Assembly (NCBI RefSeq): GCF_006539125.1
Contig: NZ_BJMK01000023.1
Location: forward strand, 1-34,958
Direction of reading: 5' to 3'
Source: Gluconobacter sphaericus NBRC 12467
GTDB lineage: Bacteria > Pseudomonadota > Alphaproteobacteria > Acetobacterales > Acetobacteraceae
DNA length: 34,958 nt
In this document: piece after piece, positions 5,299 to 30,906 of the stretch
Position numbering within the stretch: the stretch's first letter is position 1
Layout of the letters: every line of letters begins with the position of its first letter
Made by a program: the position numbers and the translations under genes
The notes under the pieces: model-generated
What the model was told of the DNA's origin: nothing
Seen by the model: the letters and a program-made list of their open reading frames with translations, nothing else
Database searches by the model: none

Positions 5299-6549
5299 TC
5301 AGACCGGACGGAGCAGGATATGCTTCTTCTTGCCGGACGAGACCTTCAGGACACCGTCCCGCAGGTCGTCGAGCGTGAAAGTCTGGTTCTCGTCCGAGAC
5401 CACCACGTCATTGACGCGACCGCCGCCGCCCCGGATCAGACGACGTGCTTCACCACCACTGGTGGCGATACCGGCCTCCTGAAAGACGCGGAAAGCAGGC
5501 AGGCCTTCGGCGATCAGGTTGGCGGGCAGGTTGATTTCCGGCAGCGCGGCCTGAGCGGAGCCCTGTTCGAAGACGCGACGCGCTGTTTCTGCGGCTTCTT
5601 CGGCGGCAACGCGGCCGTGGCAGATGGCGGTGGCTTCGGTCGCGAGGATCTTCTTGGCCTCGTTGATTTCCGAGCCTTCGAGCGCACCTAGACGCTCGCA
5701 TTCCTCAACGGGAATATCCGTGAAGAATTTGAGGAAGCGGCCGACATCTGCGTCCTCGGTGTTACGCCAGAATTGCCAGTATTCGAAGGCTGCCAGTTTT
5801 TCTGGACGGACCCAGGTCGCGCCTTTGGCAGACTTGCCCATCTTGGCGCCCGACGATGTGGTGACGAGCGGGGTGGTCAGGCCGAAAATCTGCTTGCCGT
5901 CGGTACGGCGGGTCAGATCGATGCCGGAGACGATGTTGCCCCACTGGTCCGATCCGCCCATCTGTAGGATGGCGCCGTGGCGGCGGTTTAGTTCGCGGAA
6001 ATCGTAAGACTGTAGAATGGAGTAGTTGAACTCCAGAAATGTCAGACCCTGTTCCCGTTCCAGACGCTGCTTCACGCTGTCGAAGGACAGCATGCGGCTG
6101 ATGGAAAAATGCGCGCCGATATCTTGTAGCAGGTCGATGTAGGAGAGCTTGTCCAGCCAGTCGGCATTGTTCGCGAGGATGGCGCCGCTGGACGGGTCTT
6201 CGTCGCTGAAGGTGATAAACTGGCGCAGAGATTTTTCGATCCCGGCGATGTTGTGCGCGATCGTCTCGTTCGTGATGAGGGAGCGGGCCTCGTCGCGGAA
6301 GGACGGGTCGCCGATCTTGGCCGTACCGCCACCCATCAGGGCGATCGGGCGATGGCCGTGCTTCTGGAGCAGGCGCAGCGCCATGATGGAGAGCGCATTG
6401 CCGACATGCAGGGAGTCCGCTGTCGGGTCGAAACCCACATAGGCGGTGATCGGTCCGGCCAGCATGGCCTCGTCGAGGGCGTCGAGGTCGGTGCACTGGA
6501 AGATCAGGCCGCGGGCCTGGGCTTCGAGGAGGAACGGACTCTTTGGCAT
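5299..6549 (-). CDS. tyrS: Tyrosyl-tRNA synthetase
   Basis: A full-length 416-residue class I tyrosyl-tRNA synthetase, which charges tRNA-Tyr in the cytoplasm. The HIGH-type signature is DPTADSLHVGN (HVGN at 48-51). The tyrosine-binding region shows QMGGSDQWGNI (about 196-206), and the KMSKS loop is present as KMGKS (236-240). A C-terminal S4 RNA-binding domain covers about 345-405 (SGGEARRLIRGGGGRVND). It follows the ABC permease gene after a 101-base gap that contains a GC-rich hairpin, and precedes the kinase gene. This is essential housekeeping, and nothing suggests damage. Confidence 0.97.
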   Translation of the reverse strand: MPKSPFLLEAQARGLIFQCTDLDALDEAMLAGPITAYVGFDPTADSLHVGNALSIMALRLLQKHGHRPIALMGGGTAKIGDPSFRDEARSLITNETIAHNIAGIEKSLRQFITFSDEDPSSGAILANNADWLDKLSYIDLLQDIGAHFSISRMLSFDSVKQRLEREQGLTFLEFNYSILQSYDFRELNRRHGAILQMGGSDQWGNIVSGIDLTRRTDGKQIFGLTTPLVTTSSGAKMGKSAKGATWVRPEKLAAFEYWQFWRNTEDADVGRFLKFFTDIPVEECERLGALEGSEINEAKKILATEATAICHGRVAAEEAAETARRVFEQGSAQAALPEINLPANLIAEGLPAFRVFQEAGIATSGGEARRLIRGGGGRVNDVVVSDENQTFTLDDLRDGVLKVSSGKKKHILLRPV

Positions 6550-9900: not shown

Positions 9901-11001
9901 ATGATGACTGCACTCAAAACCGTCTCCGGGACGACCTATTTGGATGCCAATGCCACCGAGCCTCTGCGTCCCGGCGCGAAGGAGGCGGCGCTGGAGGGGA
10001 TGCTGCTGTCCGGGAACCCGTCTTCGGTGCATGCCGAGGGGCGGGAAGCTCGCCGGTTTCTGGAGGATGCCCGCAGCCGGGTTGCCTCAGGTTTCGGGCG
10101 GATTTCCGGCACCTGTGTGTTTACATCCGGGGCGACGGAAGCCGATGCGATGGCGGTTCATGCGTTTGGACAGGAGCGCCGGATTTTCGTTGGGTCTACG
10201 GAACATGATGCCATTCTCAGGGCTGCACCGGAGGCTGAAATTCTGCCCGTGAACAGGAACGGAATTCTGGACGTGGAACACTTGCGCTCGCGGTTGCAGG
10301 ACACCGGTCCGGCGCTGGTCTGCGTGATGTCCGCCAATAACGAAACGGGGGTGCTCTCGCCGCTGGAGGACGTGTTGGCGGTCTGTCGCGACTCGGGAGC
10401 ACATCTGCATGTAGATGCCGTGCAGAGCGCGGGACGGGTGCCGTTTGCGCTGGGCGGGTGCAGTGTTGCGGTGTCCGGGCACAAGATGGGTGGCCCAAAA
10501 GGGGCGGGCGCGCTCATGCTGGCGGAAGATGAGCCCATGGATGCGCTGGTGGCTGGTGGCGGTCAGGAGCGGGGGCGCCGGGGCGGGACGCAGGCGCTTC
10601 CAGCTATTCTGGGAATGGCAGCAGCGTTCGATGCCGCCCGTGCTCAGGACTGGGCTCCGGTGCAGCGTCTTCGGGGGCGTGTCGAAGCGGCTGCGAAAAG
10701 CGTTGGCGCGCGGATTGCGGGTGAGGCTGTGGCGCGGTTGCCGAATACGAGCTGTTTGATTCTGGACGGGGTAGCGGCTCAGGTCCAGCTTATGGCGCTG
10801 GATCTGGCTGGATTCTGCGTTTCGGCGGGCTCGGCTTGTTCGTCAGGAAAAGTGTCGTCCTCGCATGTCCTGCGGGCGATGGGGGAGACGGACGGCGCGT
10901 CGCAGGCCATTCGCGTGTCGCTGCCCTGGAATGTGCAGGAAGCCCAGGTCGAGGTGTTCTGCGAGGCCTATGAGGCTATGGCGCGGCGCTTGCAGAAGTA
11001 A
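9901..11001 (+). CDS. Cysteine desulfurase-like PLP aminotransferase (first of tandem pair)
   Basis: A class V PLP enzyme of the NifS/IscS family, 366 residues from the ATG at 9901 (a TTG at 9883 is also in frame). It shows YLDANATEP at the start, the HAEGREAR loop, SGATEAD and EHDAI. The PLP Asp/Gln pair is in HVDAVQSAG, and the Schiff-base lysine is in SGHKMGGPKG (K195). A catalytic-loop cysteine lies in SAGSACSSGK (C313). It is complete and probably active in removing sulfur from cysteine as a persulfide. It shares an operon with a second desulfurase 23 bases downstream, from which it differs clearly, so this is an old duplication or acquisition. Which carrier it serves is unknown. Confidence 0.9.
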   Translation: MMTALKTVSGTTYLDANATEPLRPGAKEAALEGMLLSGNPSSVHAEGREARRFLEDARSRVASGFGRISGTCVFTSGATEADAMAVHAFGQERRIFVGSTEHDAILRAAPEAEILPVNRNGILDVEHLRSRLQDTGPALVCVMSANNETGVLSPLEDVLAVCRDSGAHLHVDAVQSAGRVPFALGGCSVAVSGHKMGGPKGAGALMLAEDEPMDALVAGGGQERGRRGGTQALPAILGMAAAFDAARAQDWAPVQRLRGRVEAAAKSVGARIAGEAVARLPNTSCLILDGVAAQVQLMALDLAGFCVSAGSACSSGKVSSSHVLRAMGETDGASQAIRVSLPWNVQEAQVEVFCEAYEAMARRLQK

Positions 11002-11024: not shown

Positions 11025-12158
11025 ATGATCTATCTCGATTATTTTTCAACAACGCCGTGTGATCCGGCAGTCGTGAAGGCCATGCTGCCTTGGTTTGGGG
11101 AGGATTTCGGCAATCCGCACAGTCCGCATGGGCCCGGGCGCAAGGCGGCAGCAGTTGTGGAGCGGACGCGGGAGAGCGTGGCGAGACTTCTGGGCGTGGA
11201 AGCCCGGGAGATTGTCTTCACCTCTGGTGCGACGGAGGCGAACAACCTCGCCATCAAGGGGGTGGTGCGGCATCTGGCGCGGCTGGGCGATCCGCGGAGA
11301 CGGATTGTCACGGTGGTGACGGAGCATAAATGCGTTTTGGAATCGGTGCGCGATCTGGAAAAAGAGGGCTTTGAAGCGGTCGTACTCGGCGTAGACAGCG
11401 AGGGACGGGTTGATTCCGAAGCTCTGCGGGATGCACTGAAAGTGCCAACGCTTCTGGTCAGCATCATGGCGGCGAATAACGAGACCGGGGTGTTGCAGGA
11501 TATTCCGCAGCTTGCGGCGATCGTGAAGGAGCGCGGGGCGCTGATGCATGTCGATTTGGCGCAGATGGCGGGGAAGATGCTGGTGTCGCTGCGGGATGTG
11601 GATCTGGCGTCCGTCTCTGCTCACAAGATGTATGGGCCCAAGGGGATCGGCGCGCTCTATGTCCGGAGAAAACCGCGTGTCCGGTTGGAACCGCTGTTTT
11701 CTGGAGGTGCTCAGGAGCGGGGTCTTCGGTCTGGGACGCTGCCGACGCCTCTGATTGTGGGATTTGGGGAGGCTGTGGATATGGCGGCTTCGGCCATGGG
11801 CGATGAGGCGGCGCGGCACGTGTTCCTGCGAGATGATCTGTGGGCGCAGCTTCGTGAAGGCTTGCCGGGGGTCGTTCTGAACGGCGCCGGCGCGCCGCGT
11901 CTGGCAGGGGCATTGAATGTCTGTCTGCCGGAAGGATGTCGGGCGCTGGATGTTCTGGAAGCCTGTCCGGATGTCGCCGCTTCGACCGGATCGGCTTGTA
12001 GCGCAGCCGAGATTGCACCGTCCTATGTCTTGACGGCGATGGGACTTTCTGCGGAGAAGGCGTCCCGGTGCTTGCGCCTGTCGGTCGGACGCTTTACCTC
12101 CAAGGCCGATATTGACCGTGCGGCCTCTTTTCTGATCGCAGCCGCCCGGGCGTGCTAA
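11025..12158 (+). CDS. Cysteine desulfurase, IscS/NifS type (second of tandem pair)
   Basis: A 377-residue PLP enzyme that converts L-cysteine to alanine and an enzyme-bound persulfide. The motifs run in order [50 protein letters not shown] and [10 protein letters not shown], with PLP lysine K201. The mobile sulfur-carrying cysteine is C325 in [10 protein letters not shown]. The length is typical of IscS. It is followed by ferredoxin and mnmA, the classic sulfur acceptor for s2U in tRNA, so it is the best candidate sulfur donor for MnmA here. No iscU, iscA or hscBA accompany it. Confidence 0.93.
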
Positions 12159-18279: not shown

Positions 18280-19425
18280 TTACCGCAAAGTTTTTTCGAG
18301 GTCGGCACCCCCTCCCGGAAGCGGGGTTTCGCCAGTCTTGCGGAGTTGCGTGCCATTCCATGTCAGGGTTAGTAGACTACGATCCATGACACCTTGGACC
18401 AGAATATTATGACCATCTGGAGAGAAAGTCAGTCCCTGCGGCCAGAGTGTGCCCGGAGCTTGTGCCAGTGGTGTCAGATGACCGTCGCCGAATGAAAAAA
18501 CTGTGACGATCCCCCGGTCGTGGTAGAGTGGAGATGTAGGGGAAAGTGCAGAGCCGTTCTGGGAAACGACGGCGACATAGTGGCCATCTGGAGAAATATC
18601 GAGCCCTTCCGGCGCGTTGGGGACGGGAGTGCGCTGGATTTCCCGGATTGGTTCGGCGCTTAGATCCAGAACCGAAAGAGCACCGGGCAACCCTTCACCA
18701 TGACCCAGCATTCCCATGACGGCGTAATGCCCGTCCTTGCTCAACTGGATATTCCAGGGGCCGGGTTTGATGTTCAGAGGATGAGGATCGACGGTAATCT
18801 GGTCGCCGTTGATATGGAGGGTATAGACCTTGTCCGCCTGCCAGAGGCTCACAAGGGCGCGCTTCCCGTCGGGAAGGATAGCGAGACCACCCGGAAAGCC
18901 GGAGACGGGTAAGGAAATCACGCGTCGATTGCTAAGGTTGTGTCCGTTAAACCTGAACCAGGTCAGAACTCCGGATTTGCCATTGGCGACGAGAAGATGG
19001 TGTCCGTCAGGCGTGAAACGCAGGGTGGTCGCGCCGGGAGCAGATGCTACGCGCTGTATGATTTTCGGTTCTGCCCCGGAAATATCGATGACAGTGATCT
19101 CATCGTCCGGAACGATTTTCCCCGCTTCAGGATCAGGCTTTGAAGCCGCGGAGACGACGAGGGTTTTGCCATCGGGACTGAAGGTAACGGCGGTAGGTGG
19201 CCCGATGACGCTAGTAGGCACATTGATGCTCGTCCGGACTCTCCAGACGCCATCGGGTGTTTGCACAAGAAACGAGAGGGAGTCTGGTTTCAGGGGGTGT
19301 GGCAGGACCTGTACCCCGTTTTGAAGGATGGAATGTGCATCATTCGCTGACACCACGGTCTGGGCGTGGGTGGATGAAGCGAACGCAAGCAGTGCGGTAC
19401 AGGAAAGCAGGCACAGTCTTTGCAT
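18280..19425 (-). CDS. Periplasmic beta-propeller protein (YncE/lactonase-like)
   Basis: A 381-residue exported protein with signal peptide MQRLCLLSCTALLAFASS ending at THA-QT. At least six propeller repeats are visible, each with an SPDG-type turn: VTFSPDGKTLVV, LRFTPDGHHLLVA, LAILPDGKRALVS, IQLSKDGHYAVMG, LDISPDGHYVAVV and LTFSPDGHNILVQ. The length fits seven-bladed YncE-like or lactonase propellers. It is the last gene of the dehydrogenase operon, 43 bases behind cytochrome c. A lactonase opening the sugar lactone made by the GMC enzyme is an attractive inference; a structural or metal-binding role is equally possible from sequence alone. Confidence 0.85.
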   Translation of the reverse strand: MQRLCLLSCTALLAFASSTHAQTVVSANDAHSILQNGVQVLPHPLKPDSLSFLVQTPDGVWRVRTSINVPTSVIGPPTAVTFSPDGKTLVVSAASKPDPEAGKIVPDDEITVIDISGAEPKIIQRVASAPGATTLRFTPDGHHLLVANGKSGVLTWFRFNGHNLSNRRVISLPVSGFPGGLAILPDGKRALVSLWQADKVYTLHINGDQITVDPHPLNIKPGPWNIQLSKDGHYAVMGMLGHGEGLPGALSVLDLSAEPIREIQRTPVPNAPEGLDISPDGHYVAVVSQNGSALSPTSPLYHDRGIVTVFSFGDGHLTPLAQAPGTLWPQGLTFSPDGHNILVQGVMDRSLLTLTWNGTQLRKTGETPLPGGGADLEKTLR

Positions 19426-19468: not shown

Positions 19469-20899
19469 TCAGGCTTTCGCCTTGCGGGAAAGTCGGATGA
19501 AGAAAAGAATGGCGATGGCGAAGATCAGGGCTGCTCCGATCATCGCGGGGACTGTGAAAGCGCCTAGCTGCGCAATAAGCGGTTTGGGACCACCGGAACG
19601 GATGAGCTTCACATCGTCAGGTGTGACTTTGACATTCGGATTGCCGAAGCGCTGCTCAACGTAATTGCTGATATCGGCAATGTCCTGATCGGACAGGGAG
19701 TCAACATACGAACCTGGCCCAAATCCAGGCATATAGGTCGTATGACCGTTGACCTCTCGCCGGACCCCCATGAGGATCGTGGTGATCAGGTTATCGGCGA
19801 TCGGGGCGCCCAACGCCGTATTGTGGAAAAGTTGTGGGTAGTACCCGTCCGGGCTGCCTTGGCCAGTTGGCCGATGGCAGGCTGCACACTCTCCCGAGAA
19901 GAGATATTCGCCGCGACCGATCCGGCTGGCGGGCAGAGCGCGGTAGAAGGATTCACGATCGGAAATTTTCCCATAGCTATCCCTGGGGGCCTTGTCCTTG
20001 CTGTCCGAAATAGCCGGAACCTGCTTGATGTAAGCAACCATGGCGCGGATGTCGGCATCGCTCAGATATTGGAAGCTGTGCTCAATGGCCTCTGCCATTG
20101 GGCCGCCTGCCTGAGCTTTTCCGGGAACGTCGCCGGTTTTGAGGTAGCGGACAAGATCGTCGTTGCTCCAGCCGCCGATACCGCTGACAGGGTCTGAAGT
20201 CACATTCGGCGCATACCAGGATGATAGTGATGCACCGGCCAGAGGGCTGCTGCCCTTCTCTGCCATCATGGCGTTGCGGGGGGTGTGGCAGGTGTCACAA
20301 TGTGCCAGGGCGTAGGACAGGTAATGCCCGCGATTGACTTTCACGGATTTGGAAGGATCGGGCTTGAAGCGGGTATCATCCAGGAAAAGGGCATTCCATA
20401 TCGCCATGGAAGCCCGGATATTATAGGGGAAAGGCAGCTCGGTTTTCTGCGGTCTGCTTTCGACCGGTTTCACCGATGTCATGAAATAGACGTACAGGGC
20501 GTGGACGTCGTCATCTGTCAGCTTGGTGTACGAGGTGTAAGGCATTGCAGGATAAAGATGAGCTCCGTCGCGTCGGATGCCTTCTCGCAACGCATGGGCG
20601 AACTCTTTCTCGGTGTAGTTCCCGATGCCGTATTTTTTTGAAGGTGTGATGTTAGTCGAATAGATGGATCCAAGTGGAGACGCGATGCCATAGCCGCCGG
20701 CAAACGGTTTATTGGAGCTGGGCGCCGTGTGGCAGGCTGCGCAGTCAGCAGCGATGGCAAGATAATGCCCGCGTTCGGCGACAGCCGTGTTGGGATCAGT
20801 AGCTTGTGCATGCGCAAATGTGATGGTGTTAAGTCCGATTGCAGCGGAAAGGACGAAATAGCCGGGAAGGTCCAGGCATTTTTGTCGTTTTTGTTTCAT
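19469..20899 (-). CDS. Membrane-anchored triheme cytochrome c (dehydrogenase subunit)
   Basis: A 476-residue electron-transfer subunit. From the ATG at 20899 it has a signal peptide (ending near AHA-QA). Three heme-binding sites follow: CAACH (53-57), CDTCH (201-205) and CAACH (338-342). A C-terminal membrane helix (PAMIGAALIFAIAILFFI) is followed by RLSRKAKA. This is the standard plan of cytochrome subunits that carry electrons from periplasmic FAD dehydrogenases to ubiquinone. The frame stays open to 21019, but 20899 makes an ATGA overlap with the GMC gene and starts directly at the signal peptide. A close paralogue is at 29578. Confidence 0.94.
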   Translation of the reverse strand: MKQKRQKCLDLPGYFVLSAAIGLNTITFAHAQATDPNTAVAERGHYLAIAADCAACHTAPSSNKPFAGGYGIASPLGSIYSTNITPSKKYGIGNYTEKEFAHALREGIRRDGAHLYPAMPYTSYTKLTDDDVHALYVYFMTSVKPVESRPQKTELPFPYNIRASMAIWNALFLDDTRFKPDPSKSVKVNRGHYLSYALAHCDTCHTPRNAMMAEKGSSPLAGASLSSWYAPNVTSDPVSGIGGWSNDDLVRYLKTGDVPGKAQAGGPMAEAIEHSFQYLSDADIRAMVAYIKQVPAISDSKDKAPRDSYGKISDRESFYRALPASRIGRGEYLFSGECAACHRPTGQGSPDGYYPQLFHNTALGAPIADNLITTILMGVRREVNGHTTYMPGFGPGSYVDSLSDQDIADISNYVEQRFGNPNVKVTPDDVKLIRSGGPKPLIAQLGAFTVPAMIGAALIFAIAILFFIRLSRKAKA

Positions 20900-22554
20900 G
20901 CCTGCCCCTGTGCGAAAGCGGCCTTGATGGAATCGGCAGCTTTCAGACCGAGCGCTGCCATGCTGAGCGTGGTGTTGACGACGCTGGCGGACGGCATCGC
21001 GCCGCCGCCAGGAATCCACAGGTTGGGGTGGTCATGGGCCCGACAGTTTCCGTCTACGACCGAGTCCTTGGGGTCCCGCCCCATGATCGTGCCGCCCATG
21101 ATATGATTGTTGGCGTTATAGTTCGTCGTGATGCGGAGTTCAGTTCCGCCCAGCAGGCCGGCAATCTGCTTGACCTGAGTGTTGACCGCATCCAGTCCTT
21201 TGCGGACATAGTCGCCGACATCGTAGTGGATATCAGGGCAGGCCAGCCCCAGAGGATCCTTGCGGGTTTTGCTCAGCGTCAGACGATTTTCCGGATCAGG
21301 AAGCGGTTCAAGGCTGATGGAGAGGTCAACACCGCAGGCTGCACGGCGGCGGATTTCGTCATCAAGCTCTTTGCCGACCAGACCCAGTTTGAGGGCCTGT
21401 TCCGTCGCAGGAGCGACGCGGCTGATATTGTTGAGGATCATCTTGTTGGCCGAGTATTCCCGCCGGAAATCTCCGTCTCGGGGGCCGACGATGCAGCTGC
21501 TTTGGGCTGGTCCGCGTCCAAACCAGAGAGGTTCGTTGGCCAGAAAGGATGCATGGACGCCCGAGTGGTCCATCATGTTGCGTCCCACCTGATCCGAGGA
21601 ATTGGCGATGCCGTTCGGGTTGCGTTCATTCGCCGCCAGAAGCAGAAGACGCGGGTTTTCGATACCATTACAGGCGAGCACGAATGTCTTGCCGGTAGCC
21701 TTGTGGGACTGCCGGTGCGCGTCATACCAGTGCACGGCCGTCACGCGGTTGTTTTCATCGGTATCAATACGGTAGACAACCGCTTCGGCGATGGTGACAG
21801 CGCCCTTAAACTCAGCTTTTTCGATGTGCTGAATGCCATTGTACATGGCGCCGATGGGGCAGATGGGTTGGCAGTTGTTATTGCCACAGCAGGCGGGGCG
21901 CTCACCGTAAGGTTCAATACTCCGTCCCTGTGGGATGGGAACAAGGTGAAAGCCGTGGGGGTTGACGATTTCAGCGACCCGACGGTCTCCATATCCGAAC
22001 GGTATCATGTCCCGGGGGTAGGGGCGGCTCCGTTCCGGAGGGGACTGGAGCGATTTGTCGTGCGGACCTGATACGCCCATTTCCTCTTCGGCGCGGCAAT
22101 AAAACGGTTCCAGCTCATTGTAGGAGATGGCCCAGTCGCGTCCGACGCCATAACGTGTCTTCATCTCGAAGTCGGAAGGAAGGTGGCGCCAGCAGGAAGC
22201 GGCCCAGTGCCATGTCGTTCCACCAACGGTGCGAAGGTAGCCTTGCTTGAACGCTGAGCCGTTGGGGCCTGACAGGCCTACATAGTCATTGGGCGGAAAA
22301 TATAAGGGGGCCTGAGCCAGCGGAGACTGGGGATAAAGGCCTTGAAAATCAGAATGGAGCCGGTTGTGAAACGACATGTTGCGCCAGTTTTCCACATATT
22401 CTGCGCGCTTGAGGCGCAGGCCCGCCTCCAGAATCAGTACGGAATGGCCAGCAGCAGCAAGCTCGTTTGCCACCATGCCGCCCACTACTCCGGAGCCGAC
22501 GACAATGACATCCGCCGATACATCTCCAGAGGATGAAAAGTCCGGTTTAGCCAT
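20896..22554 (-). CDS. GMC-family FAD dehydrogenase large subunit (sugar/polyol type)
   Basis: A 552-residue flavoprotein. The FAD Rossmann motif is VVGSGVVGGMVANELAAAG (G20/G22/G25) with E43 for the ribose. The cluster ACCGNNNCQPIC (C222, C223, C228, C232) matches the Fe-S-binding cysteines known in bacterial FAD glucose dehydrogenase alpha subunits. The active-site pair is likely H484 (NNHIMGG) and N527 (VVNTT). It has no signal peptide and is presumably exported with the Tat-bearing small subunit encoded 3 bases upstream. The order small-large-cytochrome c matches FAD sorbitol dehydrogenase and FAD glucose dehydrogenase operons. Sorbitol, another polyol or an aldose are possible substrates; sequence reading does not decide. 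Confidence 0.93.
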   Translation of the reverse strand: MAKPDFSSSGDVSADVIVVGSGVVGGMVANELAAAGHSVLILEAGLRLKRAEYVENWRNMSFHNRLHSDFQGLYPQSPLAQAPLYFPPNDYVGLSGPNGSAFKQGYLRTVGGTTWHWAASCWRHLPSDFEMKTRYGVGRDWAISYNELEPFYCRAEEEMGVSGPHDKSLQSPPERSRPYPRDMIPFGYGDRRVAEIVNPHGFHLVPIPQGRSIEPYGERPACCGNNNCQPICPIGAMYNGIQHIEKAEFKGAVTIAEAVVYRIDTDENNRVTAVHWYDAHRQSHKATGKTFVLACNGIENPRLLLLAANERNPNGIANSSDQVGRNMMDHSGVHASFLANEPLWFGRGPAQSSCIVGPRDGDFRREYSANKMILNNISRVAPATEQALKLGLVGKELDDEIRRRAACGVDLSISLEPLPDPENRLTLSKTRKDPLGLACPDIHYDVGDYVRKGLDAVNTQVKQIAGLLGGTELRITTNYNANNHIMGGTIMGRDPKDSVVDGNCRAHDHPNLWIPGGGAMPSASVVNTTLSMAALGLKAADSIKAAFAQGQA

Positions 22555-22557
22555 GGG

Positions 22558-23226
22558 TTAGTGCTCCTGACGGGGTTTGGGAACGTAGGGGGGAGAAGGG
22601 GGCATGATGGGTTTCAGGGGCGGCGACTGCGGCGGAATTTTGCTTTCCACGCCGAGGGGGGCTGGGGGCGGTGGCGTCGCTGGAAGCGGAACATGGATCG
22701 GAATGCCAAGTGCCGGAGGTGTCTCGGTCCACCATCCTGGGCGTGCAAAGCAGTAAGTTGGTACCGGCAGAGCGTCTTTCGTGGGCTGGTACATGAGAGC
22801 ATTGTAATAGGCGACCATGGGGGCGCCTGTTCTGTCTTCGACTGAGCCGGTGTACCAGGCAGCATTAAGGGCCAGAAAAGCCTTTTTCAGATCACCGGAG
22901 CGTTCGAGCATTTCTCGGGGTTGCCCCCCTTGTGCTGTGATAGAGGCCAGGGCCTGGATTGTGCTTGCATACTCAGGAAAAGTGGCCTGCATGGCGGCGC
23001 AGAGGCGGCTGCTGAGGAGCGGATCGAGATCAGGACGCCCGGTGATCGCCCGTGAGACGGCCAAGAATGTTTCATCAAGTGGAATGGCGGCAAGAGCGGC
23101 TGCATTTCCAAGGACTGAATTGCCGACAGCAACAGAAATACTGCCCATGATGGTCCCGAGCAGCAGGGAACGGCGCCCCAGAGCAGACTGCTGAACAGGG
23201 GGGGGAGAATGGCGGCCTTTGGTCAT
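22558..23226 (-). CDS. FAD-SLDH-type dehydrogenase small subunit, Tat-exported, with proline-rich tail
   Basis: A 222-residue gamma-type subunit that chaperones and co-exports the GMC partner. The Tat-like signal is GRRSLLLGT followed by a hydrophobic stretch ending in ALAA. The body carries the FAD-SLDH family (PF12318) features FLAVSRAITGRPDLD, RLCAAMQATFPEY and WYTGSVEDRTGAPMVAYYNAL. The usual family ends soon after YCFARPGWWTETP; here about 45 further residues are dominated by proline (ATPPPPAPL, MPPSPPYVPKP). The stop is 3 bases from the large-subunit start. A run of eight G (plus strand 23198-23205) encodes prolines near residues 8-10, before the signal. Confidence 0.9.
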   Translation of the reverse strand: MTKGRHSPPPVQQSALGRRSLLLGTIMGSISVAVGNSVLGNAAALAAIPLDETFLAVSRAITGRPDLDPLLSSRLCAAMQATFPEYASTIQALASITAQGGQPREMLERSGDLKKAFLALNAAWYTGSVEDRTGAPMVAYYNALMYQPTKDALPVPTYCFARPGWWTETPPALGIPIHVPLPATPPPPAPLGVESKIPPQSPPLKPIMPPSPPYVPKPRQEH

Positions 23227-23269: not shown

Positions 23270-23782
23270 TCATTTCAGAGATCCCACCGCAGCATTGGCG
23301 GCATCGGCGTCCTGGGCATTGTTGCCTCCACTGACACCGATGCCGCCCATAAGCTGGGTCTTACGGAAAATAGGGACCCCCCCCCCTGCCGGCATGGCAT
23401 GGGGAAGAGCCAGAACGGCCATTTTCCCGCCGCTCAGAGCCGCTTCGAAAGTGGCTGACGGGCGCTTGTAAAAGACAGCGCTGACCGCCTTGCGTTGGGA
23501 AAGGTCGATACTGGCGAGCTGTGCTCCCGCCATACGCTCGACAAGAATGGGTTGCCCCGAAGGATCAACCACAGTCACGACGATGCTCGTCTGGTTCGAT
23601 GCTGCTTTCTTTTCAGCCGCCTGAGCCAGAAGGCGCGCCTGAGAAAGGGAAAGGGGTGGGAAAGAGGTTTCTTCCGCTTGAACCACCTGCGGAATGACTC
23701 CAAGTCCGATAAACACTGCACAACTGACATGTTGCAGGATTTTGCGAGCGTTCTTTGTGGACATATTCCTGAATAGCAGCAC
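23270..23782 (-). CDS. Secreted GlcG/HbpS-like (DUF336) protein
   Basis: A 170-residue protein with a signal peptide (hydrophobic core FIGLGVIPQVV, cut near QA-EE) and a single DUF336/GlcG-HbpS domain (PF03928). Family landmarks are LSLSQARLLAQAAEKKA, VTVVDPSGQPILVERM and the C-terminal GGIGVSGGNNAQDADAA. Some members bind heme or cobalamin-type cofactors. It heads the dehydrogenase operon, 43 bases before the small subunit, so it may help cofactor handling for the cytochrome. The start is ambiguous: GTG at 23782 with GAAAGG at good distance, or ATG at 23764 with AGGA only 2 bases away. A run of ten C (23377-23386) lies within the gene. Confidence 0.87.
   Translation of the reverse strand: MLLFRNMSTKNARKILQHVSCAVFIGLGVIPQVVQAEETSFPPLSLSQARLLAQAAEKKAASNQTSIVVTVVDPSGQPILVERMAGAQLASIDLSQRKAVSAVFYKRPSATFEAALSGGKMAVLALPHAMPAGGGVPIFRKTQLMGGIGVSGGNNAQDADAANAAVGSLK
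23377..23386. repeat. Homopolymer tract C10
   Basis: Ten consecutive C inside the DUF336 gene (GGG codons on the minus strand, in the AMPAGGGVPIF stretch). The frame as given is intact on both sides. A one-base slip would truncate the protein before its conserved GIGVSGG end. Confidence 0.85.
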
Positions 23783-23850: not shown

Positions 23851-23862
23851 TAGATCGGTCTA
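23851..23862. promoter_or_regulatory. Putative LacI-family operator, copy 1
   Basis: TAGATCGGTCTA is a palindrome with central CG, as in LacI/GalR-family operators, 69 bases upstream of the DUF336 start. It is one of three copies of TAGATCGNTCTA in the window; the sequence after it (ATTC) resembles that after copy 2. Confidence 0.6.
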
Positions 23863-24006
23863 ATTCACTATATTGTGACAAAGTATGGAAAAAGCGTGGA
23901 TTTGCCGTCGGAGAGAAGGCAAGGTTTTTGGCGCTTTATGATGCCAAGCGCTGCTATCTCAATGAAAAAACGTTATTTTTTCTAGTTCAAAATTCCCGGA
24001 AAATTT

Positions 24007-24018
24007 TAGATCGTTCTA
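24007..24018. promoter_or_regulatory. Putative LacI-family operator, copy 2
   Basis: TAGATCGTTCTA, symmetric out to TTAGA...TCTAA, lies 156 bases from copy 1 (close to 15 helical turns) and 188 bases upstream of the porin start. The spacing would permit a repression loop across the divergent promoters. Confidence 0.6.
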
Positions 24019-24206
24019 AATTCTTTTTTCAGGTTCTCAATGTCGTGAGGATGTCTTCACAGAATTCGTGATGAGTTCCTCTATGGGAAATGAGAAAATT
24101 ATATGGCATGCCGCTTCCAGAGAAGAAGCGAAGTAACTGATTCTGCATTCAATGATTCGCACTAGTAGATCAGTAGGTTAGCAAAGTATGATTCATTGGA
24201 ACGAAG

Positions 24207-25802
24207 ATGTTTAAGAATCGTCTTACAATAATCAATTCAGAAGTGCGTTCGTTTTTTGCATATAGAATCTGTAAAAAAATATTATATTTTTTTTTGATTT
24301 ATGGAGTTTCTGGGGGATTCTCGTTTTTGTTTGCGAAAGATCAGATCCAAGTCCAAGTCCAAGTCCAAAATTTGGGGCCGCAGCAAAACGCGTCAACGCC
24401 GTTGAATTCCGTTGAGCAAAATGCTCCGCCTCAGTCTTCTATTGCTCCTGGTATTTTCACCACTTATCCCGCGCCCCCTTTGTCTCCTCCGCAGGCAGCG
24501 CCTTCCGCTATTACGGAAGGGCCACCTTCCATTTTTCCGGATTTTTTTGGCATGACGCCTTGGTTAAGAAAACACGGAATTGGTTTTCATTTTGATAATA
24601 CAAATGAATATGCTGGGGCGTTGCAGCATCCAACGAAAGGCCCGCATTATGGAAATTACAGGGATGGATCAAGTAATGCTGGACAATATTCAGCAAACCT
24701 TATTGTGGACTGGGAGCATCTTGCTGGCATAAGGGGTTTTGTGACGCGCATGACGACCGTTGGTCGTTATGGAACCACTGCAAACCGGATGTTCGGTGAC
24801 TGGCTGGCGCATAGTTCTGAAATCTATGGCGGCGGAGGGAACGTGGTGGTTCATCTCGTCTCATTATATGGAGAAGAAAGTCTCTTTGGTGGCAGGTTTC
24901 TGATCGCGGGTGGGCGTATGTCCCAGCTGTCCGACTTCGCATCGAGCCCTATTTTTTGTAGCTTTCAGAACAATTCTTTCTGCGGACGGCCAAAGGCGGC
25001 TGCGGATAGCAACTATTATGGTAGCTACCCTGCGGCGACATGGGCTTTCCGTATGAAAGGCCGCCCTCGTAAGGATCTTTATATTCAGGCCGGCGTCTAT
25101 TTTGCCGAAAACGGGATCTATCAGAACTATCAGCACAGGACGGGATTTAAGTTCAACGGCGCCAATATCGTTGGATATGAAATTCCGATCGAAGCTCAGT
25201 GGGAACCCCATTTCGGATCTCATCATGATCTCCCGGGTCACTACAAGTTGGGATTTGTTTATGATGATGTGCGGCGGTCTGATAATTATTACAACACAGC
25301 TGGACAGTCTTATTATGTATATGGCGGGAAGCAGTTGATGAGAAACTCTTCATGGCAAACATATTTTATGTTCGATCAGAAATTAATGAACTATACGGGA
25401 AGGGCAAAGTCTGCTGGTTTAACTTTTATGGGCGGTTATATTTATAATTCCCCGCATACTGCCGTCCGTGATTTTGAAGTGTACGGTGCGCTCTTAAGCC
25501 AGGGACTTATTCCTGGTCGTCCGGAGGATGTGTTCGGTGTTGCTTTTTCTTATGTAAGCATCGCACCTGGAACCCGTGACACAACTATGGCGATGGTCGC
25601 TGCTGGGGATTATTCGGGGATGCCGAACCACGCAACCGGCGTGCAGACCAACGCCGAGGTGCTGGAAATCGATTATTCCATAAATGTGATGCGAGGCGTA
25701 ACGTTCCGGCCGGATTTTCAGTATTATATTCATCCCAATGGACAGGTCGGGTTGCGGAATTCAGCGATGCTGGGGTTCAAGTCCTATGTGTCTCTTTTTT
25801 AG
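24207..25802 (+). CDS. OprB-type carbohydrate porin
   Basis: A 531-residue outer-membrane porin. The long N-terminus has a basic region, a hydrophobic signal stretch (ILYFFLIYGVSGGFSFLFA), then a QVQVQVQ repeat and a proline/glutamine-rich linker (to about residue 105). The OprB domain (PF04966) then begins at PWLRKHGIGFHFDNTNEY. Barrel repeats include IVDWEHLAGIRGF, FLIAGGRMS, LYIQAGVYFAENG and YKLGFVYDD; it ends in VSLF with terminal Phe. It should admit sugars or polyols to the periplasm, feeding the dehydrogenases on either side. It is divergent from the first dehydrogenase operon, with shared operator-like palindromes between. The 5' part is AT-rich compared with its neighbours. Confidence 0.9.
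   Translation: MFKNRLTIINSEVRSFFAYRICKKILYFFLIYGVSGGFSFLFAKDQIQVQVQVQNLGPQQNASTPLNSVEQNAPPQSSIAPGIFTTYPAPPLSPPQAAPSAITEGPPSIFPDFFGMTPWLRKHGIGFHFDNTNEYAGALQHPTKGPHYGNYRDGSSNAGQYSANLIVDWEHLAGIRGFVTRMTTVGRYGTTANRMFGDWLAHSSEIYGGGGNVVVHLVSLYGEESLFGGRFLIAGGRMSQLSDFASSPIFCSFQNNSFCGRPKAAADSNYYGSYPAATWAFRMKGRPRKDLYIQAGVYFAENGIYQNYQHRTGFKFNGANIVGYEIPIEAQWEPHFGSHHDLPGHYKLGFVYDDVRRSDNYYNTAGQSYYVYGGKQLMRNSSWQTYFMFDQKLMNYTGRAKSAGLTFMGGYIYNSPHTAVRDFEVYGALLSQGLIPGRPEDVFGVAFSYVSIAPGTRDTTMAMVAAGDYSGMPNHATGVQTNAEVLEIDYSINVMRGVTFRPDFQYYIHPNGQVGLRNSAMLGFKSYVSLF
24346..24368 (+). repeat. Short tandem hexanucleotide repeat in porin gene
   Basis: TCCAAG is repeated three times followed by TCCAA, coding for the QVQVQVQ segment just after the predicted signal cleavage site. 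Copy-number change by slippage would keep the frame and only alter the linker length. Confidence 0.75.
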
Positions 25803-25811
25803 ATCGATCTA
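25800..25811. promoter_or_regulatory. Putative LacI-family operator, copy 3 (perfect palindrome)
   Basis: TAGATCGATCTA is a perfect 12-base palindrome that starts in the porin stop codon (TAG). It lies between the convergent porin and lacI-family genes, about 1.8 kb from copy 2. As a distant auxiliary site it could strengthen looping, or it could act as a roadblock to transcription reading into the regulator gene. Confidence 0.5.
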
Positions 25812-25896: not shown

Positions 25897-26907
25897 TCAG
25901 GAAAGCTGGCCCCCGCAGCTCTGGCGGATCATCAACTGTCCGGAAACCAGGATACGGGTGCTGGACGTGGTGGGGTTGTCAATTCTGTCAAGCAACAGGC
26001 GTGCTGCATTGCGACCAACGCCCATCGGATCCGTCACGATGGTGGTCAAGGTCGGAAAAGATACGGCGCTTTGAGGCAGATCGTCGGCTCCGATAACTGC
26101 AAAATCGCGTCCGGGTATTTTCCCTCTGGCCAGCAGATAGCCCATGACAGACTGGGCGAGCATGTCATTGTAGCAGACAACGGCATCCGGCGGGCTGGAC
26201 GAGGCCAGGAGTTCCGGAAAGCTGCCCAGATCGGAGAGGTTCCCCAGATGGGTAGGAATGATCAGATCGTGTTTCAGCTTGTGTTTTTTCAGGGTCTTTC
26301 TGAAGCCATCGAGCCGTTCACGCGCAGCGGAATGTACCGGTTTGCCTCCAAGGAAGGCAATTTTCCGGCGTCCATGTCGGACGAGATGTGTGACGGCCAG
26401 GGAAGTCCCGTCTATATAGTCGGGGCCGACATAGTTGCCATTTCTCTGCGAGACGTGACGGAGAACCTGTACGAAGGGCAGGTGAAGCCGCTCGATTTCA
26501 GACAGAAGGGTGTCGGAGCTTCCGGCAGCCGGACAGAGAATGAGGCCATCCACGCCGTGTTCGCGCAGGCGACGGATTTGACGCAGCTGCCTGTCGGGAT
26601 TTTCGGCGCTGTTGACCAGAATGGCTACAATATTGGCGTCAACGATAACTTCGTCGATCCCCAGCATCAGTTGGCTGTAGAACGGGCTGCCAATGTCACA
26701 CAGGACAAGGCCGATCGTGCCGGTTTTCTGACCGCGCAGGTTTGCAGCGCCCCGATTGTAGATATAGCCCAGTTTATCCATCGCGCAGATGACACGGTCT
26801 CTTGTCTCCAGAGAGACAAGGGGGCTGTCCCGAAGCACCAGCGACGCAGTAGCGCGCGAGACCCCTGCTTCAACTGCCACAGAATTGAGGGTTATCGCTT
26901 TTTTCAT
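25897..26907 (-). CDS. LacI/GalR-family transcriptional regulator
   Basis: A 336-residue repressor-type protein. The N-terminal helix-turn-helix reads TLNSVAVEAGVSRATASLVL (about 6-25), with the hinge-helix region RGAANLRGQKTGTIGLVL. The periplasmic-binding-protein-like sensor domain follows (DIGSPFYSQLMLGID, GVDGLILCPA, VRHGRRKIAFLGG, GFRKTLKKHKL, DAVVCYNDMLA, VIGADDLPQS and FPTLTTI). It lies between the porin and the gluconate-dehydrogenase-type operon and is divergent from the latter, so it probably controls one or both in response to a sugar or sugar acid. The operator-like TAGATCGNTCTA sites nearby are its best candidate targets. Confidence 0.94.
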   Translation of the reverse strand: MKKAITLNSVAVEAGVSRATASLVLRDSPLVSLETRDRVICAMDKLGYIYNRGAANLRGQKTGTIGLVLCDIGSPFYSQLMLGIDEVIVDANIVAILVNSAENPDRQLRQIRRLREHGVDGLILCPAAGSSDTLLSEIERLHLPFVQVLRHVSQRNGNYVGPDYIDGTSLAVTHLVRHGRRKIAFLGGKPVHSAARERLDGFRKTLKKHKLKHDLIIPTHLGNLSDLGSFPELLASSSPPDAVVCYNDMLAQSVMGYLLARGKIPGRDFAVIGADDLPQSAVSFPTLTTIVTDPMGVGRNAARLLLDRIDNPTTSSTRILVSGQLMIRQSCGGQLS

Positions 26908-27014: not shown

Positions 27015-27090
27015 CGGGAAGCGAAAAGACTGAAGGGGCGATGGGCTGTTTTTCTATGTTGTCAGGTCATGTTTGTTATTGGAGCAAGAA

Positions 27091-27789
27091 ATGAAAATCC
27101 CCTCTTCGACGCGGCGTAATTTTACAGCCGGTCTTCTTGGGTCAGCGTCCTTCTGGATGTATGGCGGCCATAAAGTATGGGCTGATGCTTTGCAGTCAGA
27201 AAGTTTGCAGTCATACGAACCTAAATATTTCAATCGTGAGGAATGGCTATTCCTGAATGCTGCCTGCGCGCGAATATTTCCTGCGGATGCTCATGGACCC
27301 GACGCGGCCTTGCTTGGAGCGCCTGAATTCATTGATCGACAGATGGATACACCTTATGGGCATGGAGAGTTGTGGTACATGTCCGGTCCGTTCAAAGAAG
27401 GTGCCCCAAACCTGGGGTACCAGCTGTCTCTGCCGCCACGTGATCTCTATCGCCAGGCTATTGCCGCGGCAAATACCTATGTCCGCGATCATCATCAGGG
27501 ACAGACTTTCGCTCAGTTGACCATTCCGGAACAGATCGCACTCCTCAAACTGTTCGAGCAGGGCACGATGACTCTTGGCGCTGTCCCTGCCCATACCTTC
27601 TTCGAGCAGTTGCGTCAGAATACGCTTGAGGGTGTTTTTTCCGATCCCCTTTATGGCGGCAATAAGGCTCTGGCGGGATGGACGCTGCTCGGTTTTCCCG
27701 GCGCGCGCGCCGATTTCATGGACTGGGTTAATCAGAAGGGAGCGCCGTATCCGTTCGGGCCTGTTTCCATATCTGGCGAAACCGCCTGA
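27091..27789 (+). CDS. Gluconate 2-dehydrogenase subunit-3-type protein, Tat-exported
   Basis: A 232-residue small subunit of the Gluconate_2-dh3 type (PF13618). The twin-arginine signal is STRRNFTAGLLGSASFW (R8-R9). The mature part has FNREEWLFLNAACARIFPAD, EFIDRQMDTPYG and a C-terminal LEGVFSDPLYGGNKALAGWTL, all typical of the family. The ATG at 27091 is chosen because GGAG lies 8 bases upstream and the Tat signal follows at once. It should carry the GMC subunit (13 bases downstream) through the Tat system and keep it at the periplasmic membrane face. It is a different family from the small subunit at 22558. Confidence 0.92.
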   Translation: MKIPSSTRRNFTAGLLGSASFWMYGGHKVWADALQSESLQSYEPKYFNREEWLFLNAACARIFPADAHGPDAALLGAPEFIDRQMDTPYGHGELWYMSGPFKEGAPNLGYQLSLPPRDLYRQAIAAANTYVRDHHQGQTFAQLTIPEQIALLKLFEQGTMTLGAVPAHTFFEQLRQNTLEGVFSDPLYGGNKALAGWTLLGFPGARADFMDWVNQKGAPYPFGPVSISGETA

Positions 27790-27802
27790 GGATTTTTGAA
27801 TT

Positions 27803-29581
27803 ATGTGTGCGAAAAAAGTTGATGCCATCGTTATCGGTGCGGGTTGGGCTGGTTCCATCCTGGCCAAGGAACTCACGGAGGCAGGACTTTCGGTAGTTAT
27901 GCTCGAACGTGGTGACGAGCGTGCTACGGCAGTCGAAGGGGATTACCCAAGTTCGATTGACGAGTTGAGAGGAGCCATTCGTCACCGGCTTTTCCAGAAC
28001 CTGTCCCAGTCCACGGTTACGATACGGAATACGCTGGATCAGGAGGCACTACCTTACCGGCGTTTGGCGGCTTTCCTTCCCGGCGAGGGAGTGGGGGGGG
28101 CGGGACTGCACTGGTCGGGCGTTCATTTCCGTGTTGCTCCGGATGACCTGGCTTTACGCACGAATGTTGTCGCTCGGTACGGAAAGAATTTTATTCCTGA
28201 GGGGATGAATCTGCAGGATTACGGCGTGACTTATGAGGAGCTTGAACCGTTTTTCGATAAGGCGGAAAAAGTTTTCGGCACCTCCGGGGAACCTTACACC
28301 ATCAAGGGAAAGATAGCTGGAAACGGTAACCGGTTTGCCCCTGATCGTTCCGATGCATTTCCGCTTCCAGCGATGGGTGAGGTCTATTCTGCTAGCCTCT
28401 TCCGCTCGGCTGCCGCGAATGTAGGCTATCATCCCTATGCGCTTCCTGCTGCAAATGCTTCTGCGCAGTATACCAATCCTTACGGGGTGCAGATGGGGCC
28501 ATGCAATTTTTGTGGGTATTGCAGTGGTTATGACTGTTACATGTACTCCAAGGCTTCTCCCAATGTGAACATTCTGCCTGCTTTGCGCCAGGATCCGAAA
28601 TTTACTCTGATTACCAAGGCACATGTTCTCAAAGTCAATCTCGATGCCGACAACAAAAAGGCGACGGGTGTGAGTTACTTGGACCTGCGCACCAAAAAGC
28701 AGGTCGAACTGGATGCCGATCTGGTCATTATCAGTGCCTTCCAGTTTCACAATGTCCACCTCATGCTGCTATCCGGGATCGGCCAGCCCTATAATCCGCA
28801 ACAGAACACTGGAACGGTGGGACGGAATTTCGTTTATCAGACGATCACCACATCACGGGCGTGGCTGTCGCCAAAACAATACACCAATCTCTTCGTTGGA
28901 GCCGGTGGTGCAGGTGTTGCGATCGATGACTTCAACAGCATGAATTTTGATCATGGGCCACTGGGCTTCGTGGGTGGGTCTCCTGTCTGGGTTAATCAGG
29001 CTGGTGTGAAGCCGATTGCGGCTGCCGTTGGTGGCCCTGGTGGTAAGGCGCCAACCTGGGGGGAGGGTTACAAGGAGGCCATGGTCGATACCTACCGTCA
29101 CTCCCTGACCATTGACGCGCATGGCAGCAACATGGCGTACCGGGACGTGTATCTTGATCTCGATCCCACCTACAGCAATGCCTACGGTCAGCCTCTGCTC
29201 CGGATGACGTTCAACTGGAAAGACAACGATATCCGGATGAACCAGTATGTGGTGGGCAAGATCGAACCCATCATCAAGGCAATGGGGGCTACCAAGTATT
29301 CTTTGGGAATGCTGAAGGACGGAGAGGTTTTTGATACCCGCCGGTATCAGACTACGCATCTTGGCGGTGGGGCCATCATGGGAACTGATCCTAAGACCAG
29401 TTGCGTCAACCGATATCTGCAGAGTTGGGACGTCTCGAATGTTTTCGTGATCGGCGCCAGCGCATTCCCGCAGGGGATGGGATATAACCCGACCGGAATG
29501 GTCGCAGCCCTAGCATACTGGGCCGCCTATCATATCCGGACGACCTATCTGAAAAATCCAGGCCCGATGGTGCAGGCATGA
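27803..29581 (+). CDS. GMC-family FAD dehydrogenase large subunit (gluconate/2-ketogluconate type)
   Basis: A 592-residue flavoprotein. FAD motif IGAGWAGSILAKELTEAG (G12/G14/G17) with E35; VGGAGLHWSG (98-106) is the FAD-contact segment. A cysteine cluster CNFCGYCSGYDC (C234, C237, C240, C245) could hold an Fe-S cluster. H519 (TTHLGGG) and N562 (YNPTG) are the likely catalytic pair. With subunit-3 upstream and triheme cytochrome c overlapping downstream it matches the three-subunit gluconate 2-dehydrogenase and 2-keto-gluconate dehydrogenase complexes of acetic acid bacteria. The exact acid or polyol oxidised is not determined. It has no signal of its own. A run of eight G is at 28093-28100. 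Confidence 0.93.
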   Translation: MCAKKVDAIVIGAGWAGSILAKELTEAGLSVVMLERGDERATAVEGDYPSSIDELRGAIRHRLFQNLSQSTVTIRNTLDQEALPYRRLAAFLPGEGVGGAGLHWSGVHFRVAPDDLALRTNVVARYGKNFIPEGMNLQDYGVTYEELEPFFDKAEKVFGTSGEPYTIKGKIAGNGNRFAPDRSDAFPLPAMGEVYSASLFRSAAANVGYHPYALPAANASAQYTNPYGVQMGPCNFCGYCSGYDCYMYSKASPNVNILPALRQDPKFTLITKAHVLKVNLDADNKKATGVSYLDLRTKKQVELDADLVIISAFQFHNVHLMLLSGIGQPYNPQQNTGTVGRNFVYQTITTSRAWLSPKQYTNLFVGAGGAGVAIDDFNSMNFDHGPLGFVGGSPVWVNQAGVKPIAAAVGGPGGKAPTWGEGYKEAMVDTYRHSLTIDAHGSNMAYRDVYLDLDPTYSNAYGQPLLRMTFNWKDNDIRMNQYVVGKIEPIIKAMGATKYSLGMLKDGEVFDTRRYQTTHLGGGAIMGTDPKTSCVNRYLQSWDVSNVFVIGASAFPQGMGYNPTGMVAALAYWAAYHIRTTYLKNPGPMVQA

Positions 29582-30906
29582 AGTACGGTTTGTTCACCCG
29601 CGCAGCGTTTTTTGGCGTTGCCGCTCTGCTGGCAGGTTCGGTTTCTGAACTGCGGGCGGAGGATATGAGTGCCCTGATCGCTCAGGGAAAGTATGTCGCG
29701 GAAGCTTCCGATTGTAGCGCATGTCATACTGTCCGGGGCAGGGGCGAGTTCGCAGGGGGAATGGAATTCAAGCTTCCTATTGGATCGCTTTACTCATCTA
29801 ACATTACACCTGATCCTACCCACGGCATTGGGGCTTATTCTGAAGCGGAATTCTCCCGTGCCGTGCGTGAAGGTGTACGCCGGGACGGGGCAAGCCTTTA
29901 TCCAGCCATGCCGTTTCCTTCGTATGCCCGTATGAGCGACGGCGATCTTCATGCTCTGTATGTCTATTTCATGAAGGGTGTGCAGCCGGTTGCGCTAGCA
30001 GTTCCGCCCAACAGCATTCCGTGGCCTTTGTCCATCCGCTTACCAATGACCATCTGGCGAGCTGTATTTTCTCCTTCCGTTGTCGCGGCCCAGAAAGATG
30101 TCAACCGGCCTTTACGTGATGATGAAATAGAACGGGGGGCTTATCTGGTCGAGGGGCCAGGGCATTGCGGGGCATGTCATTCACCGCGGGGCATGGCCTT
30201 GCAGGAGAAAGCTCTTTCAAATAGCAATGGATCGCTTTTCCTTTCGGGCGGCGCTGCAATCGATGGCTTTGTACCGACAAGTCTGCGGCAGGATCAGCGT
30301 ACCGGACTGGCGGGATGGTCTGAAGACGATATCGTACAGTTCCTTGCTACAGGCCGTAACCGGCGCGGCGAAGCATTTGGGGGCATGACGGATGCCATTT
30401 TTCATGGAACACAGCATCTAACGGATGCGGATCTCCATGCGATGGCGCGGTATCTGCTCTCCTTGCAACCCCACCAGCCCACGCTCTCGGCATGGCATTA
30501 TGATCCGTCAGCGGCCAATGCGCTGCAGGCGGGAGACGCCTCTGCACAGGGTGCCAAAGTTTATGTGGATCACTGCGAGGCCTGTCATCGTTCAGATGGC
30601 CGTGGATATGCCCCTGCCTTCCCGCCTTTGGCCGGGAATCCTGTTCTCATGAGTGCTGATCCAGCCTCTTTGGTGCACGTAGTCCAAAGTGGTGCGGTTC
30701 TGCCGGGCATGACCAAAGCGCCGTCTGCCTTCGCCATGCCCGCATACTCAGGTATACTGAGTTCGCAGCAGATTGCTGATGTCGTCACTTTTATCCGCAA
30801 GGCCTGGGGCAATAATGCCGCTCCGGTCACTGCTGCAATGGTGGAAGAACTACGAAAATCAGCCCCTGAATCGGCAATCAAAAAAGGTATTATTCCTTTG
30901 AATTAA
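29578..30906 (+). CDS. Triheme cytochrome c subunit of the second dehydrogenase
   Basis: A 442-residue periplasmic cytochrome. The signal peptide ends near LRA-ED. Hemes are at CSACH (46-50), CGACH (197-201) and CEACH (333-337). The start overlaps the large-subunit stop (ATGA). It is clearly paralogous to the cytochrome at 19469: both share GSLYSSNITP-like, RRDGASLYPAMP-like and HALYVYFM segments. Unlike that protein it has no C-terminal transmembrane helix, ending SAIKKGIIPLN, so its membrane contact must be through other surfaces or partners. It ends the operon, with a terminator shortly after. Confidence 0.94.
   Translation: MKYGLFTRAAFFGVAALLAGSVSELRAEDMSALIAQGKYVAEASDCSACHTVRGRGEFAGGMEFKLPIGSLYSSNITPDPTHGIGAYSEAEFSRAVREGVRRDGASLYPAMPFPSYARMSDGDLHALYVYFMKGVQPVALAVPPNSIPWPLSIRLPMTIWRAVFSPSVVAAQKDVNRPLRDDEIERGAYLVEGPGHCGACHSPRGMALQEKALSNSNGSLFLSGGAAIDGFVPTSLRQDQRTGLAGWSEDDIVQFLATGRNRRGEAFGGMTDAIFHGTQHLTDADLHAMARYLLSLQPHQPTLSAWHYDPSAANALQAGDASAQGAKVYVDHCEACHRSDGRGYAPAFPPLAGNPVLMSADPASLVHVVQSGAVLPGMTKAPSAFAMPAYSGILSSQQIADVVTFIRKAWGNNAAPVTAAMVEELRKSAPESAIKKGIIPLN

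Follow-up and report, generated by a model that had tools for sequence, protein, structure and literature searches.

Three short palindromes lie around a carbohydrate porin gene of Gluconobacter sphaericus NBRC 12467, within a stretch of 34,958 nucleotides (hereafter the window) and next to a gene for a LacI-family regulator. This raises the question of whether the palindromes are the operators of this regulator and, if so, how they may act on the surrounding sugar-oxidation genes. We predict, with a probability of about 0.8, that all three are operators of the adjacent regulator (25897-26907, minus strand), which would act as a local repressor. Computed here were the presence of the palindromes, their uniqueness in the whole genome, their conservation and their co-occurrence with a subfamily of LacI proteins; we infer that the protein binds directly and that it represses and does not activate, and likewise its effector and the function of the third operator.

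Gene content of the locus

The features of the locus are compiled in Table 1. The LacI-family gene that had been noted beside the palindromes indeed adjoins them; its product has both the helix-turn-helix (HTH) domain of this family and a periplasmic-binding-protein sensor (PF00356, 4.8e-13; PF13377, 1.6e-29), and the sites track lacI across species and distant genera, as detailed below. The gene is convergent with the porin gene, and the gluconate 2-dehydrogenase-type operon (27073-30906) is divergent from it. The setting among sugar-oxidation genes, likewise proposed earlier, is confirmed by an operon resembling those of FAD-SLDH and fructose dehydrogenase, by the gluconate 2-dehydrogenase-type operon and by the OprB porin. 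Both dehydrogenases are classed by homology, and these matches do not settle their substrates.

Table 1. Genes, operators and weaker operator-like matches in the window
Feature	Position	Strand	Remarks
Beta-propeller gene	18280..19425	-	
Multi-haem cytochrome c subunit, HbpS-operon dehydrogenase	19469..21019	-	Pfam Cytochrom_C, 3 stretches
Weak match TGGATCCATCTA	20661..20672	-	Cytochrome c codons for GSIY; ambiguous
GMC flavoprotein large subunit	20896..22554	-	phmmer: fructose dehydrogenase large subunit 7w2j, E 5e-195 (best solved relative)
FAD-SLDH-family small subunit, membrane-bound FAD dehydrogenase	22558..23226	-	Pfam FAD-SLDH 7.5e-36
HbpS-like protein, first gene of divergent operon	23270..23782	-	Pfam HbpS-like 6.7e-31
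Operator 1, TAGATCGGTCTA (predicted)	23851..23862		~69 bp upstream of HbpS-like start
Operator 2, TAGATCGTTCTA (predicted)	24007..24018		~190 bp upstream of porin start codon
OprB-family carbohydrate porin, 531 aa	24207..25802	+	Pfam OprB 1.3e-74
Operator 3, TAGATCGATCTA (predicted)	25800..25811		Perfect palindrome; TAG = porin stop; 85 bp from lacI stop codon
LacI-family regulator, 336 aa	25897..26907	-	Pfam LacI and Peripla_BP_3; HTH with VSRATASLVLRDSPLV
Gluconate 2-dehydrogenase-type small subunit, first gene divergent from lacI	27073..27789	+	Pfam Gluconate_2-dh3 3.4e-29
GMC large subunit, second dehydrogenase	27803..29581	+	Pfam GMC_oxred_C/N; distant fructose dehydrogenase match
Cytochrome c subunit, second dehydrogenase	29578..30906	+	Pfam Cytochrom_C
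Weak match TGGATCGCTTTA	29781..29792	+	Second-dehydrogenase cytochrome c, GSLY codons; ambiguous

The 5' end of the porin gene carries a 6-bp tandem repeat (24346-24368, 3.8 copies), seen in the protein as a short N-terminal QV repeat. It is in frame and codes for Gln-X dipeptides in the window and in the related locus L125, where about 23 units (13.2 plus 10.2) are present at 10013-10153; locus L132 has at least 14.7 units (11498-11585), the contig ending inside the repeat. The repeat looks like a variable-length linker of this outer-membrane porin.

Three palindromes unique to the locus

The palindromes are present exactly as described in the earlier note, at 23851, 24007 and 25800, and share the pattern TAGATCGNTCTA. 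A scan of the whole genome (97 contigs, 3,059,744 bases) found no exact copy besides these three. Only the copy at 25800 is a perfect palindrome, while those at 23851 and 24007 have one symmetry mismatch each. The previously given chance expectation of 0.008 agrees with the 0.003 (first-order Markov) to 0.006 (independent bases) per strand calculated here for the composition of the window, and the clustering within 2 kb is equally real, three random points of the genome spanning 1,949 bp or less with a probability of about 1e-6. The central CG, pointed out before, and the even length are usual for LacI operators according to the available part of a regulon survey (PMC4052901).

The idea that the copies are due to chance or are a repeat, that is, a duplicated stretch without function, draws on the excess of GATC in the window (238 seen versus 131 expected). 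However, TAGA, TCTA and CTAG are under-represented in the window, the three copies are not alike in their wider flanking sequence, and the sites are kept where neighbouring non-coding DNA is not. Uniqueness in the genome, co-occurrence in the genus, conservation in alignments and a test with permuted half-sites already contradict this idea, the probability of which we consider negligible.

Co-occurrence with the regulator in Gluconobacter

Among 26 Gluconobacter genomes, TAGATCGNTCTA was found in all 10 that encode this LacI (E 1e-40) and in none of the 16 that do not. Five of these 16 contain only TGGATCG[CT]TCTA somewhere, a form with two matches in the source genome, both in coding-like ORFs. 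Among the best 80 matches listed, the closest relatives of the regulator are from Gluconobacter as well (G. potus, 97% identity; G. aidae, 95%). The gene layout of the window is common to 8 of the 10 LacI-carrying genomes, the window included, two of the eight loci being each divided between a pair of contigs (L127 with L128, L131 with L132). A different order is found in the remaining two, L134 (2454-8270) and L135 (2418-8180): lacI, TAGATCGATCTA, GFO/IDH oxidoreductase, MFS transporter, FAA-hydrolase-like protein, 2-hydroxyacid dehydrogenase and OprB, which is likely an operon for 2-ketogluconate utilisation that belongs to this regulator subfamily.

Six genomes without this lacI encode a close homologue of the dehydrogenase large subunit at 79-89% identity (in G317 the matching region is interrupted by a TGA), accompanied by a small subunit that is 43-47% identical and a cytochrome subunit that is 54-64% identical. 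These six loci (12-14 kb each) gave no match to lacI, porin or HbpS and no site at up to one mismatch. The operator goes with lacI and not with the dehydrogenase.

Short palindromes of a similar kind are known for TetR-type regulators, and a protein of that family encoded elsewhere in the genome is an example of another regulator that might bind the sites. We hold this to be very improbable, since the sites follow lacI with the 10/10 versus 0/16 distribution given above, and since a site is found with 73 of the best 80 LacI relatives listed, many of them in other genera and with different neighbours.

The palindrome in distant relatives

The comparison with related species, which had been suggested as a check, revealed that the palindromes are kept beside relatives of the LacI-family gene across species and distant genera. 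Of 299 sampled genomes of the family, 27 match this LacI at E 1e-60 (29 places) and 24 contain exact TAGATCGNTCTA. With A or G allowed at position 2 and C or T at position 11, a site with at most one mismatch is present in 20 of the 28 family loci other than the window (9-19 kb fetched each). It was found in 20/22 loci without the divergent helix VALSTAALAL and in 0/6 loci with it; the eight loci lacking a site in the fetched 9-19 kb are the six with the helix VALSTAALALRDD plus L073 and L078.

The best 80 relatives listed are mostly alpha- and gammaproteobacteria, together with one record titled Anaerolineae, and some are genomes of the family sample. In the DNA fetched for them, 73 have a TRGATCGATCYA site with at most one mismatch and 7 have none. 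Close to lacI, no more than 450 bp before or 350 bp after it, 54 of these 80 have an exact site, and 56 exact copies were counted in these 67 kb versus 31 in 836 kb elsewhere. When the half-site was permuted, the true one was the best of 360 (54 loci), followed by two close variants (32 and 12), with a median permutation of 0. Perfect 12-bp palindromes near lacI in at least five of the relatives' loci were TAGATCGATCTA and TGGATCGATCCA only. What stands beside these lacI genes is TRGATCGATCYA with T/A flanks, an even operator with a central CG. Because relatives of the repressor in many bacteria carry the same palindrome, the palindromes of the window are very probably sites of the adjoining LacI-type repressor.

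The genes next to the relatives vary. In the four loci measured (L062, L063, L134, L135) the site precedes, by 48-151 bp, an operon that starts with a GFO/IDH or an MFS gene, and the neighbours scanned include MFS, ABC, TctC and DctM transporters, 2-hydroxyacid dehydrogenases, ILVD/EDD dehydratases, a putative cyclase, a CobW protein and several proteins that matched no Pfam family. No tRNA genes were found in six loci scanned.

Position 2 of the half-site is A or G in a ratio of 83:23 for regulators with Ala in the helix and of 2:46 for those with Ser. When the helix was left out of the tree, six changes of the residue and five of the base were counted on it (57 of 79 rows scored), and three supported independent pairs give a median p of 0.5 in a sign test. 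Given these few independent changes, the association is suggestive only.

Predicted operators 1 and 2 in the divergent region

In the mechanism that we propose, a LacI dimer would bind the even, CG-centred palindrome wTTTRGATCGATCYAAAw, the predicted target duplex of which carries TTTTAGATCGATCTAAAA. Bound at operators 1 and 2, between the HbpS-FAD-dehydrogenase operon and the OprB gene, it would block transcription of both. The repressor would be released once its sensor domain binds a ligand, which may be a sugar but is more likely a ketogluconate-like sugar acid. Operator 3 would be an auxiliary site of the same protein.

Operator 1 together with its flank (CTAGATCGNTCTAATTCACTATATTGTGA) is conserved in 8/8 aligned Gluconobacter loci, with a long invariant flank. 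LacI-family operators are mostly situated 30-140 bp upstream of start codons in the material available from PMC4052901, and the roughly 69 bp between operator 1 and the HbpS start are a usual distance. Operator 2 is exact in five of the eight loci and degenerate in three, where one half is kept.

The earlier statement that two copies sit in the divergent promoter region holds with respect to the gene layout; as for the promoter itself, a simple scan gave a single match (24032-24003, minus strand), which overlaps operator 2 and is at chance level (1 found versus 0.8 expected), and no promoter-like match at operators 1 or 3. Immediately following operator 1, ATTCACTATATTGTGA (23863-23878) is invariant in 8/8 aligned loci. 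It forms an imperfect dyad (TCAC-N6-GTGA) and might be part of a promoter or the site of a second regulator. Neither the window scan nor the alignment found a copy of the palindrome in the promoter region between lacI and the second-dehydrogenase operon, so that autoregulation and control of this operon are unsupported.

The 156 bp between sites 1 and 2 amount to 14.9 turns of 10.5 bp, in agreement with the nearly 15 helical turns noted before, from which a looping operator set had been proposed. Repression by looping between two or three LacI operators would account for the spacing of 155-156 bp kept in five genomes while the intervening sequence diverges, for the degenerate second site of the three other loci, which falls within two bases of the same distance, and for the conservation of the third site about 1.8-1.95 kb away. 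We nevertheless regard looping as rather unlikely. The 336-aa protein aligns to residues 2-308 of the 360 of LacI and ends soon after, for which reason the tetramer tail seems to be absent and the regulator looks, by its length, like a dimeric protein of the PurR type. Moreover, the second site is degenerate in 3/8 loci, and a single site, the first, could be enough for repression.

Predicted operator 3 at the stop codon of the porin gene

The third copy had been described as lying past the porin stop. It does extend beyond it, and it begins with the stop codon itself (TAG). In all eight porin-LacI junctions aligned, operator 3 is present within one mismatch, and the sequence beyond diverges at once. 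It may serve as an additional anchor or as a roadblock that keeps apart the porin and lacI transcripts, which run towards each other. Alternatively, it may have been retained from an ancestral gene order with the target operon downstream of lacI, the operator of which it would have been.

To the reading that operator 3 is such a relic or a roadblock and not a promoter operator, having been kept when the inverted porin gene replaced the ancestral target operon, we assign somewhat less than even odds. In relatives from Asaia, two Gluconacetobacter, two other Gluconobacter, many Rhizobiales and Halomonas, a site follows the lacI match at a distance of 56-219 bp, and in the four of these loci that were checked (L062, L063, L134, L206) it precedes an operon running in the same direction as lacI. 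In the lineage of the window, operator 3 has a similar place past lacI, but is followed by a gene in convergent orientation. For E. coli, the available text of PMC3711431 reports that lacI transcription is roadblocked at operator O3. The conservation of operator 3 in 8/8 junctions, set against the divergence of the following DNA, speaks against a mere relic. The placement, which is that of the operon operator downstream of lacI in the relatives, suggests the origin of operator 3, and its conservation suggests a present use.

Operator-like matches inside cytochrome c genes and the wider regulon

Each cytochrome c gene of the window contains a weaker, ambiguous match (Table 1). In relatives with the same layout, TGGATCGATCTA occurs in 7/7 other copies of the first gene (cytc1) and in 6/7 other copies of the second (cytc2), in GSIY codons, and the copies of the window differ from it by one and two bases. 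L125 has operator-like TGGATCGATCTA at 6335 and 15567, inside both flanking cytochrome c genes.

As firm operators, the intragenic matches were rejected, since their bases encode the conserved motif GSIYS[T/S]NIT. Many other cytochrome c genes of the genus have GGCACGATCTAT or GGCACGATCTAC (GTIY) at the same place, and the conserved motif together with the strong codon conservation in the paralogues of the genus explains much of the match by coding constraint. By conservation over 12 bases, the matches ranked fourth or better among 513 and among 439 such 12-base segments when the copy of the analysed stretch was left out, and 5 of 513 and 16 of 439 when it was included. In the six homologous operons without lacI, the three with a GSIY cytochrome use codons that do not form the palindrome. 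A five-site array over about 9 kb, in which two operators are embedded in GSIY codons and the repressor pins or roadblocks the two dehydrogenase operons internally, is in our estimation unlikely.

At one mismatch, TRGATCGATCYA has 20 places in the genome, 4 of which are in the window, against 2 for a reversed-pattern control that is too low because it contains the rare CTAG. A wider regulon was rejected, 13 of the 15 single-mismatch places outside the window being in coding-like ORFs and the other two, C3:76218 and C4:42723, possibly intergenic; the 15 comprise 12 of 16 places from one genome scan and 3 found only in another.

Comparison with known systems and possible effector

Several of the LacI relatives stand before operons with a 2-hydroxyacid dehydrogenase, and by analogy with relatives the effector of the window regulator is probably ketogluconate-like, although it may respond to another sugar acid or to a keto-sugar. 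The 2-ketogluconate reductase GLF_1777 of Gluconobacter sp. CHM43 is induced by 2-ketogluconate and otherwise tightly repressed, by a mechanism called unknown in the accessible sections of PMC11837542, and its gene is near the LacI gene pair GLF_1772/GLF_1773. Three of six primer parts from this source match best, with 2-3 mismatches, around the 2-hydroxyacid dehydrogenase gene of L134 and in the expected places, and TAGATCGATCTA lies 48 bp before the first gene of that operon. The other three primer parts had no in-place match in L134, and a genus-wide search with one GLF_1777 primer part gave 12 places in 11/26 genomes, none of them LacI-linked. With the partial primer match on the one hand and no LacI-linked place across the genus on the other, a link of GLF_1777 to the present subfamily appears likely. 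The locus of the window differs from that of GLF_1777 in having dehydrogenases instead of the reductase.

Gluconate dehydrogenase is encoded by gad. Together with kgu, the gad operon of Pseudomonas serves the use of gluconate and 2-ketogluconate, and both are controlled by PtxS, a LacI-family repressor that senses 2-ketogluconate and has an even, CG-centred palindrome (PMC3402500, available part). The Asaia relative and the two Gluconobacter relatives that precede MFS, FAA-hydrolase-like, 2-hydroxyacid dehydrogenase and OprB genes resemble this system. In contrast, the PtxS operator TGAAACCGGTTTCA is unlike the palindromes of the window, and PtxS binds its own promoter, as far as the same part of PMC3402500 goes, whereas the lacI promoter of the window has no site. 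A search for TGAAACCGGTTTCA in the window returned nothing better than 3 mismatches, the 2 matches versus 1.36 expected being at chance.

The LacI regulons in RegPrecise (Ravcheev et al. 2014, PMC4052901), in the part of that survey available, are similar in having local sugar regulators with even palindromes and a central CG. They differ in that autoregulation, which applies to 72% of that set, is not seen here, and in that one site of the window coincides with a stop codon and others may lie within coding sequence, a class of less than 1% there.

Literature searches with four spellings of the palindrome, other than those of operators 1 and 2, gave matches unrelated by title, and a search on LacI-family regulators and operators of acetic acid bacteria gave none. 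Among titles and abstract openings, with RegPrecise and supplements outside the search, there was no paper on this operator.

Significance for Gluconobacter and related bacteria

The operator set is a well-supported prediction and would be a switch of an ordinary kind in sugar metabolism. Of more interest are the putative operator that overlaps a stop codon and those that may lie inside genes. The analysis provides a concrete candidate operator, with its regulator, for the periplasmic sugar-oxidation genes of Gluconobacter. This genus serves in the production of sorbose, vitamin C precursors and ketogluconates, and foreign regulators are imported into it for inducible expression according to what is available of recent papers. 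A possible regulator is also suggested for the reductase operon inducible by 2-ketogluconate, the repression of which is called unknown in the part of PMC11837542 at hand. Beyond the genus, it points to a widespread LacI subfamily in which a residue of the helix and a base of the operator may change together.
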